A program made the position numbers and the translations under genes. A stretch of DNA of 33,299 nucleotides from a virus. The notes beneath the pieces were generated by a model that ran no database searches, was not told where the DNA came from, and was given only the letters and a program-made list of their open reading frames with translations. Shown piece by piece: positions 2,927-27,635 of the stretch (position 1 is its first letter; each line of letters starts with the position of its first letter). Location of the stretch: positions 1-33,299 of IMG/VR virus record IMGVR_UViG_3300031539_000168; one strand, given 5' to 3'.

Positions 2927-3218
2927 TTTCGTTCTCCTGTGAGTGTGTTCCCCCGAAGTGCCGGGGGAGTAGGTCCTGTTCAATTGAGTCCATTAAGTCT
3001 TTGAGTAGTTCCTTGGTTCGAGTCGACCAATCAAAAAACTCAACTACGATCTTTCCCTGTGTACTACACCCCTCAACCGCCCCATCTGGCCCACGTGTAA
3101 TATGCGCCAGCGCGTATCCCACACTGCTGATCTCTGGATCAGACTTAGGGACTACACGTATTTTTACATCAACGGCATGTAGGCCGTTTATCGGTGTTGG
3201 GTTGTCCCCTACCTTCAT
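2874..3218 (-). CDS. Hypothetical protein, operon member
   Basis: 114 aa, not recognised. The N-terminal 75 residues alternate hydrophobic and polar (VDVKIRVV, GKIVVEFFDW), suggesting a small beta-rich domain. The last 35 residues are acidic and disordered (SQENENDSDG, RNEEETP). Its ATG overlaps the stop of the upstream gene as ATGA (3215-3218) and has no clear Shine-Dalgarno, so translation is probably coupled. The acidic tail is encoded within the 53 bp shared with the DUF932 gene and may be tolerated mainly because of that overlap. Confidence 0.65.
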   Translation of the reverse strand: MKVGDNPTPINGLHAVDVKIRVVPKSDPEISSVGYALAHITRGPDGAVEGCSTQGKIVVEFFDWSTRTKELLKDLMDSIEQDLLPRHFGGTHSQENENDSDGLGTRNEEETPQL

Positions 3219-10119: not shown

Positions 10120-10922
10120 ACCACATTACACCCGCACACTTGGTCGGCTTCACCGCCGAACTCCGTAAGGAGGCAGACGCAGGGAAACTCAATCTCTTGC
10201 GTCGTGTTGGTACGTTTGGGGCCAAGCATTTGGGGGGTAGGTATGGTCGGCAGCTTGGCGTAGGAGCCCTTGCGGGTGGTGCTACTGGGGCGGGTTTGGA
10301 TGATGACAATAGGGTACGTGGTGCTATCCGCGGAGCTGTGGCCGGGGCAGGGTTAGCTAGTGGCCGCATACTTGCTACGGGAGCTGGTCGTGCTGCGGCG
10401 GCAAAGGGTTTAACGCGAATGGGCAAACGTCTACAATACCAAACCACTGGTACCGGTTTGGGTATGGGCCCTACAGCTAAACTTCGAGAAGCCCAGAGTT
10501 TGGGGTTGTTGAAGGCTCCTGGTGCTGGAGCGTCCAAGTCTGCACTTAAAAAGTACGACGCACACGTTGAGGGGTTTAGGAAGGGCTACGACAACCTGCC
10601 TGGGATTGTTCGTGGGGCTGTTACGCGCCCAGGGGACTTAGCCCGATCTGCGTGGCGTAGATCGGATATGTTAGGTAAAGGGTTTGCCGGTTTAGGTGCT
10701 GTTGAAGCTGGCCGTGCGGCTATGACTCCTAGTGAGGAGGGTGGTCCTGGTCGTGCTGAGAGATCTCTGAAGGCTCTCGGTTCTGCAGCGGGATGGATGG
10801 TGGCACCTACGGGACTTGTTGCCGGCACCCTTACAGGCATGGGTGGGGAGAAGGCGGGAAGGTTGTTGGGTAGGGGTGTTGACAAAACAGTAGGCGCTGT
10901 TCGTTCTGTAGGGGGTGCTTGA
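10116..10922 (+). CDS. Glycine-zipper-rich protein, possible internal or ejection protein
   Basis: 268 aa. After a short N-terminal helix (LVGFTAELRKEADAGKL), the protein carries Gly/Ala zipper stretches (GVGALAGGATGAGL, GAIRGAVAGAGLASG) that could insert in or pack against membranes, then basic segments (KGLTRMGKRLQ) and another hydrophobic Gly stretch near the C-terminus (GLVAGTLTGMGGEKAGRLLG). ATG 10116 forms an ATGA overlap with the preceding gene; an in-frame upstream ATG at 10059 lies inside that gene and lacks support. The profile suits a DNA-injection or internal head protein next to the portal. Function is inferred from composition only. Confidence 0.6.
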   Translation: MNHITPAHLVGFTAELRKEADAGKLNLLRRVGTFGAKHLGGRYGRQLGVGALAGGATGAGLDDDNRVRGAIRGAVAGAGLASGRILATGAGRAAAAKGLTRMGKRLQYQTTGTGLGMGPTAKLREAQSLGLLKAPGAGASKSALKKYDAHVEGFRKGYDNLPGIVRGAVTRPGDLARSAWRRSDMLGKGFAGLGAVEAGRAAMTPSEEGGPGRAERSLKALGSAAGWMVAPTGLVAGTLTGMGGEKAGRLLGRGVDKTVGAVRSVGGA

Positions 10923-12967
10923 TGTCTGGTGGGTTCTCAGGAGCAGCGTCATCCTCTGCAATGCGTTTTTCTGGTCGCGGCGGTAGCGGCGGTAGCGGTG
11001 CTGATCAAGGAATGCAATATCCGAGTCCATTCTTTGACATCGGACACACGTACCTCCCTGCCACAGTCAAGCAGATGTTTCGGTGGTGCAGGTATTACTA
11101 CCTGGTCAATCCACTGATTAATGCTGTCGTGTCTAAGATGTCTGAGTACCCAATCACGGACATCATCTTCGACACTGAACGTGAAGAGTTGCGGGACAAG
11201 TGGCAGGGATTCCTTATGGAACACTTGCGCTATCGATCATTCCAGGTCGAAGTAGGGTTGGACTACTACACCTATGGGAATGCTTTGGTTTCGATACACT
11301 TCCCATTCGTGAAGTACCTGTACTGTCACGCTTGTAATCATGAGGAAGCTGCGGGAGAGGCACAGTATAGGTTTCAGAACTACCAATTCACCTGGATCTG
11401 TCCCAAGTGTGATAGCCACGGTTTTGCTGGCGTACGCGACCACTACATTCGTTCCGCCAAAGGCATACGGCTACTCCGTTGGAACCCCGAGGACATCGAC
11501 ATTCGATACAATGAATCGAATGGAGAGTACGAGTACTACTACTCGATCCCAGTCCAACTACGTAACGATATTATGATCGGGAAAAAGTCCACGATCGAAT
11601 CTGTACCGCAACTCTTCATCGACGCTTTACGTTTGAAGAAGTCAGTAGTGTTTTCACGCGACAACATATACCACTTCAAACGCCCAACGTTGGCCGGAAA
11701 AGATCGTGGGTGGGGTACTCCTATGATCCTACCTGTGTTGAAGGACACGTTTTATCTACAGATCTTACGCAAAGCCCAGGAGGCTATCGCGCTCGAGCAC
11801 ATCGTACCGTTGCGCGTATTATTCCCACAGGCAGGCAGTGCCACGTCTGACCCATACACCACAGTTAACCTTAAGGACTGGAGGGACCAGATTGGGAACG
11901 AGATCAGACGTTGGAGAACCGACAATAACTACATCCCCATCCTCCCCCTCCCTATCGGACATCAGACTATCGGCGGAGATGGACGAGCACTACTCCTCTC
12001 GCAAGAGATTCGCGTATGGTCCGAACATATCGTCGCTGGTATGGGGATACCTGTCGAGCTCATATTTGGCGGCCTGTCGTACTCAGGATCGAACGTCTCC
12101 CTTCGTATGCTCGAGAACAGCTTCTTACGCTACCTCTCCGACCATCTTGCGCTCCTTAGATGGGTGATCAAGAGCGTCGCATCGTACCTGGGCTGGGCGC
12201 CGGTTAAAGCTCGATTCAAGCCGTTCAAGATGGCAGACGACTTGCAGCGTAAGGCGTACCTATTCCAGCTCAATCAAGCAGGTAAACTCTCTGATGAGTC
12301 TCTCTTGGCAGACGCGGATTACGATGCTCGTAAGGAAGACAAGTTGATGGAGCACGAAGCGGCCCGTCGCAACGCTTCACAAGAGAAGAATGCACTCCTG
12401 CAAGCCGAGACGCAAGGCAAGGCGGGTATGATCCAGCAGAAGTGGCAGAACAAAGCTGCTCGTGAACAGATGCAGGATCAGATGGCCATGCAAAGTGAGA
12501 TGGCTAAAGAACAAGCGGCTGTTGGTGCCGTTGCGCAAGACCATATGCTGGCCAGTCAGACGGCGGCTCAGTCGGGACAACCACCACCACAGCGCCCTCC
12601 TGAATTGGAACCTACCCCAAGGCAGCCTCAGATGCTGGAACCTCCGAAGGAGGTACAGTCTCCACTGTCTGCACAGACGATCCAAAGACATCCTGCCGGC
12701 ACATCAAACTCACAGATTGCTGGTGGTATGAACGTGGATTTGATTGTTGCAGCACGTAGGCTTGCTGATCGAATCATGAGTCAGCCAACACAAACACGCC
12801 CACAGATACTGGCTCGGCTCAAAGAGGTTAACCCACCTATGCACGACGCAGTGTTAGGGCTAATGATGAGTGGGGGCAATGGCCCCACTCAAGCTGCAGG
12901 GGCAGCCGCACGACCACTGCCTGAGCAGAAGCCGCCACGGCGTGGCCCTGAAGCAGCACTCGTCTAA
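10922..12967 (+). CDS. Portal protein with zinc-ribbon insertion
   Basis: 681 aa. Forms the dodecameric ring at the head vertex through which DNA is packaged and ejected. A Gly/Ser-rich N-terminus leads into a portal-type core: VNPLINAVVSKMSEYPI, YDYTYGNALVSIHFPF-like clip/wing segments, RWNPEDIDIRYNE, IYHFKRPTLAGKDRGWG and IPVELIFGGLSYSGSNVSLRM, the last typical of myovirus portals. The C-terminal 200 residues are Gln/Ala/Pro-rich. C135-x2-C138 and C160-x2-C163 form a rubredoxin-like zinc ribbon inside the core, which is unusual. ATG 10922 overlaps the preceding TGA as TGATG and follows AGGGGG. It ends against a convergent gene. Confidence 0.85.
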   Translation: MSGGFSGAASSSAMRFSGRGGSGGSGADQGMQYPSPFFDIGHTYLPATVKQMFRWCRYYYLVNPLINAVVSKMSEYPITDIIFDTEREELRDKWQGFLMEHLRYRSFQVEVGLDYYTYGNALVSIHFPFVKYLYCHACNHEEAAGEAQYRFQNYQFTWICPKCDSHGFAGVRDHYIRSAKGIRLLRWNPEDIDIRYNESNGEYEYYYSIPVQLRNDIMIGKKSTIESVPQLFIDALRLKKSVVFSRDNIYHFKRPTLAGKDRGWGTPMILPVLKDTFYLQILRKAQEAIALEHIVPLRVLFPQAGSATSDPYTTVNLKDWRDQIGNEIRRWRTDNNYIPILPLPIGHQTIGGDGRALLLSQEIRVWSEHIVAGMGIPVELIFGGLSYSGSNVSLRMLENSFLRYLSDHLALLRWVIKSVASYLGWAPVKARFKPFKMADDLQRKAYLFQLNQAGKLSDESLLADADYDARKEDKLMEHEAARRNASQEKNALLQAETQGKAGMIQQKWQNKAAREQMQDQMAMQSEMAKEQAAVGAVAQDHMLASQTAAQSGQPPPQRPPELEPTPRQPQMLEPPKEVQSPLSAQTIQRHPAGTSNSQIAGGMNVDLIVAARRLADRIMSQPTQTRPQILARLKEVNPPMHDAVLGLMMSGGNGPTQAAGAAARPLPEQKPPRRGPEAALV

Positions 12968-13416: not shown

Positions 13417-13902
13417 TCATAAGACGCCTTTGTAAACCAAAGCGTCTCCCTCATCCGCATCTCCACCCCCAAAGATTGAAGTGATACATGCGGAACATAA
13501 GATCGCTCGTTTAGGTATCTGGTCATCCACTTCAAACTCTCCGTGCGCCCCAGCCCCACCAACGGAGATACGGAACGCCCACGGAGTCATACTGAAATCG
13601 TGATCACAGATATGACACTCCCACTGGTCGGGAGTGTGTTTCCAGTTGCTAAGGCCCGCTTGATCTGCCATTTGATAGTAGCAGTCAAAGTGGAACATTT
13701 TAACAATAGTGTGTCTGGGTTGCTTCTTGGGAGGCATACGCCAGTCAGCATAGAACCCACTAAATACTGGGTCTTTTTTGTGTGACAATACTCGGCCGGA
13801 CTCTAGGAGGATTAACTCATCCTCCCCAAAGTCTCTCTGGCAAAGTGGGCACGGATCTGTGGGTTTGACTGTTGGCCGGTTGATCCAAGCATATATGCTC
13901 AT
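13417..13902 (-). CDS. RING/treble-clef-like zinc protein
   Basis: 161 aa. Four ligand pairs are visible: C18-x2-C21, H71-x2-C74, C96-x2-C99 and C136-x2-C139, with a spacing that could hold two zinc ions in a RING-like or double treble-clef arrangement. Between them lie DPVFSGFYADWRMPPKK and an aromatic/Gly segment (WAFRISVGGAGAHGEFEV). No catalytic motif is visible, so a protein- or nucleic-acid-binding adaptor is most likely. ATG 13902 overlaps the upstream peptide's TGA as TGATG and follows TAGG. It is third in the minus-strand island. Confidence 0.7.
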   Translation of the reverse strand: MSIYAWINRPTVKPTDPCPLCQRDFGEDELILLESGRVLSHKKDPVFSGFYADWRMPPKKQPRHTIVKMFHFDCYYQMADQAGLSNWKHTPDQWECHICDHDFSMTPWAFRISVGGAGAHGEFEVDDQIPKRAILCSACITSIFGGGDADEGDALVYKGVL

Positions 13903-13979
13903 CAGAACCTACTGAGGAAGGAACCCATCTCCATTAGAAATGTGGAGATAAATGCCATTAGGAGAATTTCCCAAATCAT
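13902..13979 (-). CDS. 25-aa hydrophobic membrane peptide, translationally coupled
   Basis: A 25-residue ORF beginning MIWEILLMAFISTFLMEMG and ending FLSRF: one hydrophobic span followed by a basic C-terminus. It is joined to its neighbours by an ATGA overlap with the acidic 52-aa gene upstream (13976-13979) and a TGATG overlap with the zinc protein downstream (13900-13904). This exact fit, with no other gene in the gap, is the main evidence that it is translated. It could be a small membrane effector or only a coupling element. Confidence 0.5.
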   Translation of the reverse strand: MIWEILLMAFISTFLMEMGSFLSRF

Positions 13980-14134
13980 GACGAAGAATCTTCATCACTT
14001 TCGTCCTCGTCCTCAGTGTCTCCACTGATCTCGTCATCAATTTCATCAGAGAAGTCACCCAGACTACTGTCGTCCTCTGGATCAGCCATGAGTAGGTATT
14101 TGTTTGTATTTGAGTGTTCGTATGTTGTGTGCAT
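13976..14134 (-). CDS. Small acidic protein (52 aa)
   Basis: 52 residues. The first 18 are neutral (MHTTYEHSNTNKYLLM) and the remaining 34 are almost all Asp, Glu and Ser (DEIDDEISGDTEDEDESDED). TAGGAGAACAG lies directly before ATG 14134, one of the best ribosome sites in the window. It is the first gene of the minus-strand island. Very acidic small phage proteins are often DNA mimics or inhibitors of host nucleic-acid-binding proteins; that is inference, as no specific family is recognised. Confidence 0.65.
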   Translation of the reverse strand: MHTTYEHSNTNKYLLMADPEDDSSLGDFSDEIDDEISGDTEDEDESDEDSSS

Positions 14135-14285
14135 CTGTTCTCCTATGGTTGTTGTTTTGGACCGAATGACGGTTCCTTCTCCGGTACAATACTTATAACT
14201 CCAGCACCTCCTTTATTTCGGGTTTGCTAGGTTACCGAAGTGGGTGCTACTTTGATGTGTACGCACAACCACATAGGAGACACCC

Positions 14286-14441
14286 ATGGCACGACTTGAC
14301 CCAGAAGAGGGCCTCAGAGCTCTCAAAGATCGGGGAGAGACCAGCGCTATAGAAAGGTGGGAAGTAACCCACCCTACTACAAGCAAGATCAAAAATAAGA
14401 TTACCCGGACCCTACCTGGAGACATGCTATGGCTAGATTAG
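14286..14441 (+). CDS. 51-aa leader ORF duplicating the RNA polymerase N-terminus
   Basis: Encodes 51 aa. Residues 1-16 (MARLDPEEGLRALKDR) match the first 16 of the RNA polymerase that starts 143 bp downstream (MARLDPEEGFEVLKDR), with many synonymous differences. The rest (WEVTHPTTSKIKNKI, ending MLWLD) shows no resemblance to it. TAGGAGACACCC precedes the ATG, and the duplication includes the ribosome site. Its TAG ends 13 nt inside the polymerase gene in another frame, so translation is probably coupled. It could be a regulatory leader, a decoy peptide, or the remnant of an older 5' end. Confidence 0.55.
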   Translation: MARLDPEEGLRALKDRGETSAIERWEVTHPTTSKIKNKITRTLPGDMLWLD

Positions 14442-17400
14442 ATCCAGAAGAAGGGTTTGAGGTTCTAAAAGATCGGGTAAAGGAGACAGTCAAGGGACTC
14501 TTTCCGATCATTGGAAAGAAACACACACTTGAAGTAGACACTGTCGACATCAACGATTCGCTTAGCATCGACGACATCAGGTCGCAGAAGAAGGCGAAAG
14601 ATGCAGGTCGAACTTGGGCAGTGCCTGTAGAGGCCACTGTTAAACTACGCGACAGTGCTACAAATAAGATCATAGACACCCAGAAGATAAAACTACTGGA
14701 CCTGCCTAAGGTCACTCGTAGGTTTTCTCATATCGTCAACGGCCAAGAATATCAGATCGATAACCAGTGGCGTTTGAAGCCTGGTGTCTATTCGATGATC
14801 AAAGACGATGGCGCCTTGAAATCCCAGTTCAATCTATCGAAGGGACGAGGTTTCCACGTCAAGTTCGACCCAAAGGATAAGCGATTCCTTATGGAGTATG
14901 GGACTTCGAATATCCCACTAGCACCCCTCATGCAGGAGTTGGGAGTCTCTCCAGAGAAGATGAAGAAAGACTGGGGCGATCAAATCTCTGCGTCCAATGT
15001 GGAAAATAGAGAACAGGCCCTACTTAAGTTCTACAAAGCATCGACTGGACAAAAGACATCAGACACAGACCTTGCCCGCCAACACCTATGGGACACGTTT
15101 CAGAACACTGAAATGGGCAAAGGGGAGGTCAACAAAATCACCTTAGGTAAGAACTACCAGAGGGTGAATGGCGACTCTCTCTTGGATGCGTCTAAGAAAC
15201 TGTTGAGTATCTCGCAAGGCACGGCTACGCCAGATCCACGTGACTCTTTGATGTTCAAAGACTTGCACTCAGTAGAAGACTTCACAGCGGAACGTATCCA
15301 AAAGGGCGCGTATGATATCAACAGGCGTGTACGTAACACGATTGATCGTCGTACAAAAGTCAAGGACATAGTAGGGTCCGACATATTCAACCGCCCAGTA
15401 CAGAGGATGTTTACACATAATTCTCTGGCTAACGTTCCTGAGCAGACCAATCCGTTGGAGATGGTCTCAGGAGCCACTAAGACTACTATTACGGGCGAAG
15501 GTGGAATCAAGGGTGAGCATGGCATTTCTGATGAGGCAAAGCTGATCGACCCATCTCACCTGGGTTACTTAGACCCAATCCACACTCCAGAAGGCAAGTC
15601 TACTGGTGTCTCTTTGCGGTTACCTATCGGTGTTCATAAAGTAGGCCACGAGGTACGCGTCAAGATGTTCGACCCTAATACTGGGAAGAACAGGAACGTT
15701 GGTCCAGGAGCTGCAATGAATGCCACTATCGTACTTCCTGACCAAGTGTCTTGGGAGAATGGTAAGCCTAAGTTCCACGGCAAGACTGTGAAGATGTCTG
15801 GTCCTGGTAACGAGATTGTGGAGGGTGATCCTAAGAAGGCAGATCTCATTATGCGAGATCCGTCGCAGATGTTCTCTATAGCCTCAAACCTCATACCCTT
15901 TATGGCTGCTGACCATCCTAACCGTTCTACAATGGCGGGCCGGCATATGGAGCAGTCAATCCCCTTGGCTCAGCGTGAAGCCCCACTAGTGCAGGCTAAG
16001 TTTGGTAAGCGCACATTTGATGATGTATTGGGAGGCTTCGCCGCGATTAAGGCACCCTCTGGTATTTCAGATGGAACTGTTGTTGATTCGATCAAAGATG
16101 ATGCGATCATTCTAAAAGGGACCGATGGCAAGAAGAGGGAGGTTCAGATCTACAACCACTTCCCGTTGAACGCGGATAAAGCGTTCATCCACTCTACACC
16201 GTCTGTGAAGGTGGGAGACACTGTGAAGAAGGGCCAAATTCTGGCCGACAGTAACTTCACCAAGGGTGGGACCATGGCGCTAGGCACCAACATGCGTGTT
16301 GGGTACATGTCCTATAAGGGTTACAACTTTGAGGACGGCGTTGTCATCAGTGAAACGGCTGCAAAGAAGATGGCGAGTGAGCACCTTCACCGTAAAGCTA
16401 TGCAGCGTGACAAGAACTTCATCTTTGATAAGAACAAGTTCCGCGCTTACACGCCTGACGCTATGAACACGGAACAGTCAGACAAGCTCGATGACGAAGG
16501 TGTTATCAAGCCAGGCACTGTTGTTATGCCTGGCGATACTGTAGTAGCGGCGCTTCGTGAAAGGTTTGAGCATGAACGAGTAGAGGACTCTCAGCTCGCG
16601 AAGATCCACAAGTCTGCCGTAAAACCGTACCGTGACGCTAGCCTCAAGTGGGAAAAGGACATGCCAGGCATTGTCCAAGAGGTTGTAAAGAAGGGCAAGA
16701 ACCTTTCCGTAAACATAAAGACACTAGAACCTATGGAGATCGGCGACAAGCTGGCCGGTCGCCACGGTAACAAGGGTATCGTCACGAAGATCATCCGTGA
16801 CGATGAGATGCCACATACAAAAGATGGGGTACCCCTTGAGGTGCTACTCAACCCAACCGGTGTCCCAGGTCGTACTAACCTGGGGCAGGTTCTCGAGACT
16901 GCAGCAGGGAAGATCGCTCTAAAGACAGGGCAGCCTTACGTCGTAAAGAACTTCCAGCCTGGGGCTGATTTACATAAACAAGTGTCCGACGATCTGAAGG
17001 CCCACGGCATCAGTGACAAAGAGGAAATCTTCGACCCTGCTAATGGGCGGAAGATGGGAGATGTGTTGGTCGGACCTCAACACATGATCAAACTTAAACA
17101 CCAGGTAGATACTAAACTGCGTGCTCGAGCAGGCGGCCCAGGATATGCCTACGACCGTAACCTCATCCCAAAGGGTGGTGGTGCACACGGTGCACAGGCT
17201 TTGGGTACCTTGGGGCTGTACTCTATGTTGGCGCATGGGGCCAAGGCCAACTTACGTGAGATGCAGACGCTCAAGTCTGATGCTGAGCAAGGAGATCAGT
17301 TTTGGACAGCTCTACAAGCAGGTGAGATGTTGCCTGCACCGAGGACAACGTTCGCCTACAAGAAATTCAACAGCTATCTTAACGCCCTCGGAGTGAACGT

Positions 17401-20400
17401 TAAGAAAGAAGGCAACAACCTTCAGCTTGTCCCATTCACTGACAAGCAGATCTCTGACATGAGTAACGGAGAGATCAAAGACCCAGGAAAATGGGTACGC
17501 TCCAAAGACTTGAAACCCGAGAAGGGTGGGCTGTTTGATCCAGAAACAACTGGAGGTATGAACGGCACCAAGTGGGGGCATTACAAGTTACCCGAGGCGC
17601 TACCCAATCCTTTGTTCGAAGGCGCCGTACAGTCTTTGACAGGTCTTTCCGGGAAACAGTACAGTGACATCATCGCTGGCCGGAAAGCCATAGACACGAA
17701 GACTGGGCAAGTCACCGATGACATAGAAAACAATCTGGTAGGTGGCAAAGCGTTCGGCAGTTTGCTTGGCAAGATCAATGTGTCTGATGCATTGAAAGTC
17801 GCACAGACCGAGCTTAACAATCCCAACCTTAAAGGTAACCGTTTAGATCGGGCGCATAAAAAGGTCAAATACCTGTCTGCTCTAAAGAACGCAGACCTTG
17901 ATCCTAAGTCTGCGTACATGATGCAGAACGTGCCCATACTCCCACCGTCTATGCGTCCACTTTCTGTACTACCTAATGGTAGTTTGAACGAGGACGACGT
18001 GAACGGTCTGTACAAGAACATCGCCTTGTCTGCGTCCAAGTTCAAGGAGATGTCTCCTTTGATTCCTGACGATGACGAGTCTAAGGTAGAGATCAGGGAA
18101 GAAGTATACGACGGACTCCGTGCCCTCACAGGTCTGGGAGGTCATTCAAAACAGACCAGGCGTGGCATCCTTGATACGATCGGCGGAAAGCGGATTGAAC
18201 AAGGCACTGGTAAGAAGATAGGCTCCCCAAAAGAAGGATACTTCCAAGACAAACTAGTCCAGCGTAAACAAGATTTGTCTATGCGCTCGACTATTATTCC
18301 AGAACCCGCAATGGGACTGGATGAAGTGGGGCTGCCGCGTTCTGCGGCGACAGAACTCTACAAACCGTTCATTATCGGCGAGCTACGCAGACTCACAGGT
18401 ATGTCTCCGCTCCAGGCTCGAAAAGCGGTTAAGGAGGGCGGTGAGCTTGTCAACAGAGCTCTAGAACGTGTCATAGAAACACGCCCGGTACTGCTTAAGC
18501 GCGATCCCGCTTTGCACAAGTTCAGTATTCAGGCGTTCAAGCCACGGATTGTACAGGGTAAGGCAGTCCAGATTCACCCACTCGTGACATCCGGATACAA
18601 CGCAGACTTTGACGGCGACGCTATGTCTGCGTTTGTACCAGCTAGTCAGGAGGCTGTGGATGAAGCGAAGAAGATGATGCCATCTCACAATCTATTCAGT
18701 CCGTCTACGGGGGAGCTTATGTACACTCCCACACTTGAGACGAGATTAGGGTTATATGGTGTAACTAAAGAGGGCAATAAGACCGCCAAGAAATTCGGCA
18801 CCATTGGGGATGTTGAAAGCTCACACCGCAAGGGTGATATCAAGTTTACTGACCAGATAACTGTGGGAGGTCTGGCAGGCACCACAGGTAGGTTCATGGT
18901 TGCTGGTGCTCTACCATCCTCGATGCGTAAGAGCTTTCTACAATCTAAAACCCCTCTTGATGGCAAAGGTCAGGCTGAGTTACTTACTGCTGTTGCGCGT
19001 GATCATAAGAATGACTATGGGGAAGTGGTCAATAAGCTGAAAGACTTAGGCAACCAATGGTCCACAGATACTGCATTCTCGATCGGACTTGATGACGTGA
19101 AGCCAGAGAGAGCACTACGTGATTCTATCCTGGCCAAAGCAGATAAGGAGGTCGCTAAGCTATCCGGAAAAGATCGTGACGCTAAGGCCATAGATATCTA
19201 CGCGAAGGCTACCCAGGACATGCACGGTCGTATAGATCGTATGTCGGAAAATAACAGTAACCTTCTGATCATGCACCGGTCCGGCATCAAACCTACGATG
19301 GATTCCCTCCGTCAGATTAAGATGTCCCCTATGCTCATCGCTAATGCGAAGGGCGAAGTCATACCCACGCCTGTTCGGAAGTCCTTCTCGGAAGGATTGG
19401 ATATCTCAGACTACTGGACGAGTATGTCAGGTGCCCGTAAGGGGATTATCCAGAAGGTCCAGTCTGTTGAGAAACCAGGTTTCTTATCTAAGCAGGTAAT
19501 GAACTCGACCATGAACAACATCATCCTTGATGACGACTGTGGTACAGATAAGGGGATCAGTCTTGCTACGAGTGAGAAGGATATTCTCGATCGTTATTTA
19601 GCGGCGTCAGTTAAGTCTGGAAAGAAGACCTTTGGTGCCGGCACGTTGATAACACCAGACATTCGTAACTCATTACGCAATAATAAGATCGGGAAAGTCG
19701 TAGTACGTTCGCCTCTACGATGTAATCACGGTCCTGGATTATGTAAGAAGTGTTTCGGACTGGATGAGTCTGGAGAATCCCCAGAACTGGGGACCAACAT
19801 AGGTGTGCAGGCAGGGCAAGCGATTGGTGAGCGTTCTGTTCAGCTCGCCATGAAAGCTTTCCATACTGGGGGCACCGCAGCTACGAAGAACGTTCTTACT
19901 GACGAGTTCCAGCGGGTGCAGGACATGCTCCTATTCCCAAAGAATCTTCCAGGTTCAGCAACGCTGTCTAATGTTTCGGGCAGAGTAGAGAAGATGGATA
20001 AAGACCCTGCTGGTGGTCACAACGTGTTCATTGGTGGGCAGAGACACTACGTTCCGCAGAATCGGGGAGTACCTATCTTTGGGAATAAAGAAATCAAAGT
20101 AGGTATGAATGTGCGGAAAGGGGACCCTATATCTCGAGGGCCAGTTAATCCACACGACATGCTACCCCTTACAGGTGTTGAGCCAGTACAGAACTACTTG
20201 GCCAATGAGCTACACGGTATTTATGGCCGCCAAGGTATCCGTCGTCGTAACAGCGAGGTTGTCGTCAAGGCCCTTACAAACCTCACCAGGGTAGAAGACC
20301 CTGGTGACTCTGGTGATTACATTCGTGGCGACTTTGCACCACAAACACACGTCGCCAATCTTAATAGAGGGTTGAAGAGTGGACAACGTCCGATCGTACA

Positions 20401-20602
20401 CCAGCCTGTTTTGAAAGGGGTAAACGTACTACCTCATGAGATGCAGGAGGATTGGCTTGCACGCCTAAACCACGACAGGTTAGGTCAGACTGTCATAGAG
20501 GCCGCCCAACAAGGTTGGATCTCTAAGATACACGGACCACATCCAATACCTGCTGTTGTTTATGGTGCTGAGTTTGGCAAAGGTAAGCCTGGGGAATACT
20601 GA
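14429..20602 (+). CDS. Single-chain DNA-directed RNA polymerase (beta plus beta-prime fusion)
   Basis: 2057 aa holding both large catalytic subunits. Beta part: LDPIHTPEGKSTG at 381-393, NMRVGYMSYKGYNFEDG at 621-637, GDKLAGRHGNKG at 772-783 with both active-site lysines. Beta-prime part from about residue 1010: VPILPPSMRPL, GYFQDKLVQRKQDLSMRS, NADFDGD at 1391-1397 (catalytic Mg ligands), zinc site 2 (C1704, C1765, C1772, C1775) and trigger-loop segment QLAMKAFHTGG with H1812. The first beta-prime zinc ribbon is missing: GLFDPETTGGMNGTKWGHYKL (1034-1054) replaces it. No alpha, omega or sigma gene is nearby. GGAG precedes ATG 14429. Lying between portal and spike genes, it may be packaged in the virion, though it could equally serve late transcription. 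Confidence 0.93.
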   Translation: MARLDPEEGFEVLKDRVKETVKGLFPIIGKKHTLEVDTVDINDSLSIDDIRSQKKAKDAGRTWAVPVEATVKLRDSATNKIIDTQKIKLLDLPKVTRRFSHIVNGQEYQIDNQWRLKPGVYSMIKDDGALKSQFNLSKGRGFHVKFDPKDKRFLMEYGTSNIPLAPLMQELGVSPEKMKKDWGDQISASNVENREQALLKFYKASTGQKTSDTDLARQHLWDTFQNTEMGKGEVNKITLGKNYQRVNGDSLLDASKKLLSISQGTATPDPRDSLMFKDLHSVEDFTAERIQKGAYDINRRVRNTIDRRTKVKDIVGSDIFNRPVQRMFTHNSLANVPEQTNPLEMVSGATKTTITGEGGIKGEHGISDEAKLIDPSHLGYLDPIHTPEGKSTGVSLRLPIGVHKVGHEVRVKMFDPNTGKNRNVGPGAAMNATIVLPDQVSWENGKPKFHGKTVKMSGPGNEIVEGDPKKADLIMRDPSQMFSIASNLIPFMAADHPNRSTMAGRHMEQSIPLAQREAPLVQAKFGKRTFDDVLGGFAAIKAPSGISDGTVVDSIKDDAIILKGTDGKKREVQIYNHFPLNADKAFIHSTPSVKVGDTVKKGQILADSNFTKGGTMALGTNMRVGYMSYKGYNFEDGVVISETAAKKMASEHLHRKAMQRDKNFIFDKNKFRAYTPDAMNTEQSDKLDDEGVIKPGTVVMPGDTVVAALRERFEHERVEDSQLAKIHKSAVKPYRDASLKWEKDMPGIVQEVVKKGKNLSVNIKTLEPMEIGDKLAGRHGNKGIVTKIIRDDEMPHTKDGVPLEVLLNPTGVPGRTNLGQVLETAAGKIALKTGQPYVVKNFQPGADLHKQVSDDLKAHGISDKEEIFDPANGRKMGDVLVGPQHMIKLKHQVDTKLRARAGGPGYAYDRNLIPKGGGAHGAQALGTLGLYSMLAHGAKANLREMQTLKSDAEQGDQFWTALQAGEMLPAPRTTFAYKKFNSYLNALGVNVKKEGNNLQLVPFTDKQISDMSNGEIKDPGKWVRSKDLKPEKGGLFDPETTGGMNGTKWGHYKLPEALPNPLFEGAVQSLTGLSGKQYSDIIAGRKAIDTKTGQVTDDIENNLVGGKAFGSLLGKINVSDALKVAQTELNNPNLKGNRLDRAHKKVKYLSALKNADLDPKSAYMMQNVPILPPSMRPLSVLPNGSLNEDDVNGLYKNIALSASKFKEMSPLIPDDDESKVEIREEVYDGLRALTGLGGHSKQTRRGILDTIGGKRIEQGTGKKIGSPKEGYFQDKLVQRKQDLSMRSTIIPEPAMGLDEVGLPRSAATELYKPFIIGELRRLTGMSPLQARKAVKEGGELVNRALERVIETRPVLLKRDPALHKFSIQAFKPRIVQGKAVQIHPLVTSGYNADFDGDAMSAFVPASQEAVDEAKKMMPSHNLFSPSTGELMYTPTLETRLGLYGVTKEGNKTAKKFGTIGDVESSHRKGDIKFTDQITVGGLAGTTGRFMVAGALPSSMRKSFLQSKTPLDGKGQAELLTAVARDHKNDYGEVVNKLKDLGNQWSTDTAFSIGLDDVKPERALRDSILAKADKEVAKLSGKDRDAKAIDIYAKATQDMHGRIDRMSENNSNLLIMHRSGIKPTMDSLRQIKMSPMLIANAKGEVIPTPVRKSFSEGLDISDYWTSMSGARKGIIQKVQSVEKPGFLSKQVMNSTMNNIILDDDCGTDKGISLATSEKDILDRYLAASVKSGKKTFGAGTLITPDIRNSLRNNKIGKVVVRSPLRCNHGPGLCKKCFGLDESGESPELGTNIGVQAGQAIGERSVQLAMKAFHTGGTAATKNVLTDEFQRVQDMLLFPKNLPGSATLSNVSGRVEKMDKDPAGGHNVFIGGQRHYVPQNRGVPIFGNKEIKVGMNVRKGDPISRGPVNPHDMLPLTGVEPVQNYLANELHGIYGRQGIRRRNSEVVVKALTNLTRVEDPGDSGDYIRGDFAPQTHVANLNRGLKSGQRPIVHQPVLKGVNVLPHEMQEDWLARLNHDRLGQTVIEAAQQGWISKIHGPHPIPAVVYGAEFGKGKPGEY

Positions 20603-25587: not shown

Positions 25588-25764
25588 CCGGCGTGAGCCG
25601 GCCAGATAACAGGAACCCCCACTGACTTCTCCCATAGTTGTCGAGATGTTGGCAGGGTTCCTGATGGTTACATGTTTGATTGTTAGATAACAGGACCGCC
25701 TCGATCTAGTAACTGGCCTAATGGGAACATTCAGTGGGCTACATCTCCAGCCAGTTACTGTCCT
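25588..25764 (+). other. Two structured intergenic units with complementary loops upstream of terL
   Basis: The gap 25582-25790 contains a GC-rich hairpin (CCGGC-GTGA-GCCGG, 25588-25601) and then two units, each opening with AGATAACAGGA (25604-25614 and 25685-25695). Unit 1 is closed by CAGGAACCC/GGGTTCCTG (25610-25618, 25655-25663). Unit 2 is closed by AGTAACTGGC/GCCAGTTACT (25708-25717, 25750-25759) with an outer AGGAC/GTCCT pair. The loop of unit 1 (CCCACTGA, 25618-25625) is perfectly complementary to unit 2's loop (25731-25738), and complementarity continues imperfectly. No U-tract follows. It could be a structured RNA, or a DNA site such as a packaging signal. Confidence 0.65.
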
Positions 25765-25790
25765 TATAACGCTAGGCAGTGTGTTTTTCG

Positions 25791-27635
25791 ATGAGTACCA
25801 TACATCTAAAAGAGCTCGAAATACTCAAGACCGCTAAGAAGATCAAACTGATCAACTCTTTTATATCTGGACCTGATGGACGGAGATATAGTGAGCCTTT
25901 TTACGATCTGGATGATGAAGGCAACCCTTGTGATTACGACTTTGATGTAGATGTACCCGATCCTACCTTAGATCAAATAACAGGCTTCCATGGAGATCCT
26001 GGCCTGGTAGGTGTTCGACCGAGTGAGTTTGCTGAGACAGCAATACGTATCCCAGAAGCTGGACGTGTCACGGATTTCACTTTTGAAGGACGTGAGTATC
26101 TGCGTAGGATCTACGACTCATCATCAAAGAAGGTCCTACTGAAGTGCGGGCGTCAGGTTGAGAAATCGACAACCGTTGCTAATAAGCTTATTTGTTACGC
26201 GGCCCTGATGAACCACTTCAGGGCTTTGTACGTTGCTCCTTCTGCAGATCAAGCCAAGGTATTCTCCAATGACCGTGTCCGTGACGTCATTGAGAACTCC
26301 CCACTGTTGAAGGCGTACACTCCAGGGGCTCTAAACCAGAACGTGTTCCGGAAGAAGTTTGTCAACTTCTCACAAATCACTCTAAGGTATGCTTATCTGA
26401 CTGCTGATCGCGTACGTGGCATCTCGGCCGATATGATCACTATCGATGAGATTCAGGACATCCTCATCGAGAACATCCCTGTCATCGAGCAATGTGCCTT
26501 CCACTCTCCAGTTAAGCAGTTTCTTTACTCTGGTACACCCAAGTCCCTTGATAACACCATAGAGCACTACTGGCAGGAGTTCTCCACTCAAAACGAGTGG
26601 ACTGTGCCTTGTGAACGCCATGGTACGCCAAAAGACCCAGGCTCTTGGCATTGGAATGTGTTGGACATTTCCAACATAGGTAAGAAGTGTTTGATTTGCG
26701 ATAAGTGTGGTGGGGCTATAGATCCCCAACACCCTCACGCACAGTGGACGTCTTTGAATCCGGTCGACAAGAACAATGCCGAGAAGGTCACGTTTGACGG
26801 CTACCGTGTTCCGCAGATCATGGTACCGTGGGTTGACTGGCAGGAGGTTGTTGAGGCCCTCGAGCAATACCCTCGTCCTAAGTTCATGAACGAGAAGCTG
26901 GGGATGTCTTACGACTCCGGCGTCAAACCCATTACACGTGCACAGCTTAAAGCGTGTTGCCGACCAGAACTTAGAATTTCTGACATCGACTCTATCAAGA
27001 GCATCATTGGCGGCAGACCAGTGTACTGCGGTATAGACTGGGGTACAGGAGAGAATGCCAGTTATACGATGATCTCTTTCGGTGCATACATAGGTACTGG
27101 CAACTTCACAATCTTCTATATCCACAGGTTTACAGGTCATGACTTGGAGCCTGATAGACAGTTGGATGCCATTCGCCAAATGGTTTCTCAGATGAACACA
27201 CGTATTGTAGGTACGGACTACGGTGGTGGCTTCTATCAGAACGACAAACTTATTAGGACCTTCGGTCCTAAGAGGGTATTCAAGTACAACTACAACTGGC
27301 GGCAGAAGAAACTCATCTACTGGGAGCCCAACCTAAAAAGGTTCATGGTCCATCGTACAGAGGTAATGAATGCCATCTTCACAGCCATGAAGGACCGGAA
27401 AATTGACCTACCTTGTTGGGACGATTTTCACGAGCCCTTTGGCTCAGACATCCTAAGCATCTTTACGGAGTACAATGAGCAACTCCGTATGGATCAATTT
27501 AAGAAATCCCCTGGAAAGACAGACGATGCTTTCCACTCAATCTTACTGTGTGTGTTGGCATCGATGATTGAGCATGAACGGCCGGACATCCTGATCCCAG
27601 GTAAAGAAACAGGTATCTCAATAAAACATGGCTAA
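25791..27635 (+). CDS. terL: Terminase large subunit
   Basis: 614 aa. ATP-powered motor and nuclease that packages DNA into the prohead through the portal. ATPase domain: Walker A variant CGRQVEKST at 119-127 (a Glu in place of the usual Gly), Walker B MITIDE at 215-220, coupling motif SGTP at 247-250. A zinc-ribbon-like insertion follows (C274, then CLICDKC with C300, C303, C306). Nuclease domain: CGIDWGTGENAS with the first metal Asp, VGTDYGGG with the second, and KTDDAFHS with the third acidic site. ATG 25791 is chosen over an in-frame GTG at 25779; neither has a good ribosome site, so the start is uncertain. A bidirectional hairpin follows the stop. Confidence 0.92.
   Translation: MSTIHLKELEILKTAKKIKLINSFISGPDGRRYSEPFYDLDDEGNPCDYDFDVDVPDPTLDQITGFHGDPGLVGVRPSEFAETAIRIPEAGRVTDFTFEGREYLRRIYDSSSKKVLLKCGRQVEKSTTVANKLICYAALMNHFRALYVAPSADQAKVFSNDRVRDVIENSPLLKAYTPGALNQNVFRKKFVNFSQITLRYAYLTADRVRGISADMITIDEIQDILIENIPVIEQCAFHSPVKQFLYSGTPKSLDNTIEHYWQEFSTQNEWTVPCERHGTPKDPGSWHWNVLDISNIGKKCLICDKCGGAIDPQHPHAQWTSLNPVDKNNAEKVTFDGYRVPQIMVPWVDWQEVVEALEQYPRPKFMNEKLGMSYDSGVKPITRAQLKACCRPELRISDIDSIKSIIGGRPVYCGIDWGTGENASYTMISFGAYIGTGNFTIFYIHRFTGHDLEPDRQLDAIRQMVSQMNTRIVGTDYGGGFYQNDKLIRTFGPKRVFKYNYNWRQKKLIYWEPNLKRFMVHRTEVMNAIFTAMKDRKIDLPCWDDFHEPFGSDILSIFTEYNEQLRMDQFKKSPGKTDDAFHSILLCVLASMIEHERPDILIPGKETGISIKHG

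Follow-up and report, generated by a model that had tools for sequence, protein, structure and literature searches.

A candidate translational operator at the start of a phage single-chain RNA polymerase gene: an RNA hairpin relocated by partial duplication of the initiation region

Introduction

Some phage polymerase genes are known to carry operator hairpins. The closest described case is gene 43 of phages T4 and RB69, which encodes the DNA polymerase and is subject to an autogenous translational operator; in T4, the hairpin lies about 40 nt upstream and is recognized partly via conserved loop bases (PMC3014915). Archaeal L7Ae controls its own expression by binding a k-turn located in the 5' UTR of its mRNA (PMC5539422).

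The stretch of DNA analyzed here, referred to as the window, is the complete IMG/VR record IMGVR_UViG_3300031539_000168 (33,299 bases). It resembles the gene 43 case in that a phage polymerase gene bears an RNA hairpin close to the site where its translation begins, with a single gene presumably under control; this hairpin is located at the initiation region of the polymerase and is conserved in relatives. Conserved loop bases as in T4 are not found among the copies, whose loop columns vary; unlike in gene 43, it is the base of the stem and the internal loop that are conserved. Further differences are that the usual site lies within the coding sequence, that the gene encodes a multisubunit-type RNA polymerase, and that binding of a protein to the element is hypothetical. 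In the window, the start of the polymerase gene is present in a second, upstream copy. The feature preserved in this leader copy is a small folded RNA, not a short protein, and probably constitutes a switch on polymerase synthesis.

Results

The polymerase gene (14429-20602, + strand) encodes a fused beta-beta' multisubunit-type RNA polymerase of 2057 aa, identified by its Pfam domains, which occur in the order Rpb2 domains 2, 3, 6, then Rpb1 domains 1, 2, 3, 5; its N-terminus is MARLDPEEGFEVLKDRVKET. It follows a portal-like gene (10919-12967) and precedes the large terminase gene (25779-27635). The jumbo phage enzymes covered by one review consist of several chains (PMC7598289), whereas beta and beta' form a single chain in the window; this chain shares about 31% identity with proteins that lack annotation in the Vibrio phages D181, D148 and D69. 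A very acidic 52-aa ORF on the - strand (13976-14134) is transcribed divergently and has its intergenic region in common with the polymerase, and a similar divergent ORF is apparently present in some relatives.

A 51-aa leader ORF (14286-14441, + strand; sequence MARLDPEEGLRALKDRGETSAIERWEVTHPTTSKIKNKITRTLPGDMLWLD) duplicates the initiation region of the polymerase. Both reading frames begin MARLDPEEG...LKDR, with 13 of the first 16 residues identical, and the similarity ends at about codon 16, with none farther 3' and none upstream. Synonymous differences are found in 7 of the 13 shared codons, two codons differing at two bases. GGAGACA stands 5' of both starts (14276-14282 for the leader, 14418-14424 for the polymerase), and the 3' end of the leader overlaps the polymerase start by 13 bp in another frame (14429-14441). 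The common N-terminus, the synonymous differences, the similar ribosome sites and the overlap were pointed out in a preliminary description of the sequence and are confirmed here; the location that it gave, 14286-14490, has the correct start and an end that lies past the stop of the ORF. Second copies were scanned for within 1.5 kb upstream of the polymerase in 80 relatives: the window scored 67 and the related locus L012 scored 65, while every other best match scored at most 27, and thus the duplication is not due to chance. These two leader ORFs, the only ones known, are strongly diverged from each other. A short ORF whose stop overlaps the downstream start (TGATG in L012) is reminiscent of leader ORFs with translational coupling; unlike the usual coupled leader, the ORF here copies the start of the downstream gene itself.

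Two scans of IMG/VR yielded more than 100 contigs with related polymerases (loci are numbered with the prefix L); a scan of genome contigs found no relative. About 30 related polymerases have the N-terminus MARL(S/D)PEEGFxxLKDRV in common. Comparison of the corresponding nucleotide sequences establishes a structured RNA hairpin, present once per genome, at the start of the polymerase gene in these phages. Its commonest position is polymerase codons 5-18. In 17 one-copy relatives, codons 8-13 (mostly GAG GGN ... CTC) form a 6-bp stem with a 6-nt loop, and in L008 five of the six pairs are formed. The flanks of this stem, CCNG and CGGG, make up a second, outer stem, and the internal loop is asymmetric and purine-rich, one strand contributing A or AA and the opposite strand a stretch that ends in GA. 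In the window, the relocated hairpin occupies 14299-14335 (+ strand): the inner stem pairs 14307-14312 with 14319-14324, and the asymmetric internal loop and a weak outer stem are also present. A second perfect hairpin with a 6-bp stem and a 6-nt loop, GGTGGG-AAGTAA-CCCACC (GGTGGGAAGTAACCCACC), is predicted by folding at 14356-14373 (+ strand), within the leader ORF and 3' of the element.

The inner helix is paired at 98.7% across 26 distinct sequences, and its covariation score of 0.302 compares with 0.156 +/- 0.016 for shuffled alignments (0 of 500 reached it) and at most 0.151 for slid controls. The 17 coding-start sequences alone give 98.9% pairing and, again, a covariation above all shuffles and slid controls. 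The wobble base of Gly9 and the first base of codon 12 form G-C, C-G or U-A pairs, with eight changes on the polymerase tree. Only three of the 247 columns with a conserved residue are also invariant in their codon, namely E8 GAG, L13 CTC and D15 GAC; all three fall inside the element, for which the chance probability is about 2e-5. Given each gene's own codon usage, an equally good stem would arise with a probability of 0.004-0.12 per lineage. Since single-sequence folding energies are mostly unremarkable (z 0.27 for the window copy, with its weak outer stem), the evidence for the hairpin comes from comparison. The stem includes several G-T positions, which pair only as + strand RNA; this argues for an RNA rather than a DNA palindrome bound by a repressor, which we disfavor.

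The upstream hairpin of the window scores 40.9 bits with model R1, a value that is partly circular, and 22.8 bits (E 1.5e-4) with model R2, which was derived solely from phages whose hairpin lies in the coding start. The hairpin was also found in the coding start of six loci fetched after the models had been made (L100, L105, L107, L115, L116 and L131). A pattern composed of the stem and its invariant neighbors has 58 matches in 1.07 Mb of fetched sequence, in which loci from the two scans overlap; apart from one stray match, there is one per phage, situated at the polymerase start or its leader. Model searches of whole records recovered one strong copy per record and no further one, and a multi-gene regulon is therefore unsupported. 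Rfam returned no family match above the gathering score for window positions 13900-14900. The model finds no copy in L034, L112 and L117, where the coding stem is lost; upstream of their polymerase start (locus position 3001), other hairpins can be traced by eye, some of them flanked by GAAGA or GAUGA.

A promoter-like box, CTTATAAC (14192-14199, + strand), is common to relatives upstream of the polymerase start. The distance from CTTATA to the hairpin is 97-124 nt in phages with a coding-start hairpin and 115 nt in the window. The only other CTTATAAC of the window is located at 25763-25770, just 5' of the earliest start that the terminase ORF could have (25779); two occurrences are no excess over chance. 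Most close relatives also possess a conserved box resembling TCTGGTAGCTTG, situated 3' of the CTTATA box and 5' of the ribosome site (14224-14233 in the window). The ribosome site of the leader ORF, CACATAGGAG (14270-14279, + strand), recurs in the same or nearly the same form before the polymerase start in L013, L029 and L030. In the window and L012, the leader copy thus follows a box and a CACATAGGAG that in other relatives introduce the polymerase gene directly; the leader therefore occupies the ancestral initiation site, and the start now used by the polymerase arose later. The coding-start position is probably ancestral for the hairpin.

Six loci possess the hairpin upstream of the polymerase start (the window, L012, L015/16, L017, L033/56 and L099, the last fetched after model building), and R2 recovers every upstream copy with 18.8-28.3 bits. 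At the real polymerase start of the window, the coding copy (14442-14478, + strand) is decayed, with a broken stem and an R2 score of 13.9 bits (E 0.13). The closing pair of the coding stem is lost as GAA...CTA in the window, L012 and L033, as CTG in L017 and as CTA in L099, where the stem is likewise broken. L015/16 is the exception, having retained the coding stem, and L016 has both copies. An upstream copy is hence accompanied by loss of the coding closing pair in 5 of 6 loci as against 0 of 22 without one, counts that ignore relatedness. The hairpin persists in all six upstream copies, the ORF with its ribosome site in two (window and L012); in L015/16, L017, L033 and L099, the ATG, the ribosome site or the frame has been lost and the RNA stem retained. 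At least four location changes are required on the tree, in which L099 is not included. L017 is the sister of the window in this tree (support 0.99), and a single relocation event may therefore account for both.

These comparisons show that part of the initiation region was duplicated in some lineages, including that of the window. The hairpin persisted in the upstream copy and disappeared from the downstream one, which took over as the real polymerase start. Accordingly, the leader ORF represents the old initiation region, and its peptide is a consequence of carrying the hairpin. Keeping the hairpin in the leader copy and losing it from the coding copy (E8 GAG to GAA, L13 CTC to CTA) also accounts for the synonymous divergence. 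Neutral tandem duplication is rejected, given that the upstream stem is kept while the coding copy decays.

Discussion

We propose that the leader hairpin and its relocation represent a translational operator which reaches the polymerase through stop-start coupling, and we assign this reading a probability of about 0.62. A bound factor, possibly the polymerase itself, would block initiation at the ORF that bears the hairpin. The hairpin lies in an initiation region in every case. Most commonly it is found just 3' of the start codon; in L015/16, L017 and L033 it adjoins or overlaps the ribosome site of the polymerase, and in the window and L012 it is part of the leader ORF that overlaps the polymerase start. 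The 3' outer arm overlaps that site in L016 and L017, and in L033 the site is paired in the predicted fold. For the window, we envisage that a repressed leader would also repress the polymerase, by translational coupling. The basis for proposing coupling is the position of the leader stop (14441), 13 nt into the polymerase gene, together with a predicted pairing of the polymerase ribosome site (14416-14424, + strand; GGAG at 14418-14421), in which 14416-14420 pair with 14443-14447 in polymerase codons 5-7; ribosomes translating the leader would open this pairing. The predicted cost of opening is 13.9 kcal/mol at the polymerase start and 8.4 kcal/mol at the leader, the former being within the spread of values predicted for other window genes. 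As to the ligand, naming the polymerase is a guess by analogy with gene 43 of T4 and from the presence of one site per genome.

It is less likely, though deserving of consideration, that the hairpin acts otherwise on the mRNA, by protecting its 5' end, as a nuclease processing site, or as a transcription-level signal for the polymerase. In agreement with such a role, the hairpin occurs once per genome and lies 71-124 nt 3' of CTTATA in every phage with the box found close by. However, no U-run follows the stem, after which comes AAAGAUCGGG, and it is hence no intrinsic terminator or attenuator; moreover, its abutting or overlapping of the ribosome site in L016, L017 and L033, and its place just 3' of the start codon elsewhere, speak against this view.

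What is more difficult to maintain is that the leader is a functionless remnant, the 5' end of the resident polymerase gene left behind after the entry of a diverged polymerase start by recombination. The leader does stand at the ancestral site, and both copies resemble diverged orthologs; but a dead remnant would not retain a covarying stem, let alone through repeated location changes with decay of the coding stem, and we consider this very improbable. Recombination may nevertheless have been the origin of the second copy.

A selected leader peptide (a decoy, a tag or a nascent-chain regulator) is likewise very improbable: the window and L012 do retain the ATG, the ribosome site and a MARL(D/S)PEEG frame, yet the remaining upstream copies keep the stem without the ORF, and the Ala (GCT) at codon 12 of both leaders is a base change that turns a stem G-U, as found in most coding-start copies, into G-C. 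Loss of the ORF in most upstream copies, persistence of the hairpin in all of them and the G-C pair conferred by GCT together indicate that the RNA is preserved and not the peptide. The preliminary description had reasoned from preserved peptide and diverged DNA to selection on the peptide, or else to a duplication retained for a purpose, with leader control among the options. Its view that the duplication is not neutral stands, and the leader control that it listed agrees with our reading; selection on the peptide does not stand, the ORF having been lost in four of the five other upstream loci, and a localization, packaging or cleavage tag finds no support in an ORF that is not kept. Most homologous phages possess one copy only, an outcome that largely corresponds to what the same description had named as speaking against its proposal. 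As a caution for similar cases, conservation of a peptide despite divergence of its DNA does not necessarily signal selection on that peptide.

If our reading holds, the locus is a case of an RNA control element that left a coding sequence by duplication and was then erased from the coding copy, with several stages of this process visible across lineages. The literature searched contains no account of a coding-start operator moved out in this way, which is no proof of absence. As far as the same literature shows, no regulatory handle on this group of single-chain beta-beta' phage polymerases has been described before, and the element would be the first.

A kink-turn has two stems separated by a three-nucleotide bulge and, after it, sheared G.A and A.G pairs. 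The element is similar in having an asymmetric internal loop with three nucleotides and then GA, an invariant A opposite, and two flanking stems. The GA of the bulged strand and the opposite A are invariant; at position 2n, where G is expected, every copy other than that of L131 has A, C or U, and the register of the internal loop is shifted in several copies relative to a kink-turn. Based on these features it is possible that the element is a kink-turn; a literature search on non-consensus kink-turns found nothing. A phage-encoded L7Ae ligand was rejected, as no gene of the L7Ae family was found in ten related phage records. We advance only as a speculation, rather unlikely as a whole, that the fused beta-beta' polymerase controls its own translation via an RNA element within its coding sequence, possibly a kink-turn, and that this element repeatedly left the coding sequence through start-site duplication, with new leader ORFs as by-products.

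The coding-start copy of L131 (3014-3050), which was fetched after the models had been built, fits the kink-turn consensus fully (AGA opposite AAAGAC), with CCCUA-GA opposite AAA-GA-CAGGG. In L035, the common element is absent, and a strong hairpin (2937-3003) is located directly 5' of the polymerase ribosome site; as folded, this hairpin, AUCCCC-UGU-GA-GGAC-GCA-GUCC-GA-GGGGAU, can also be read as a consensus kink-turn.
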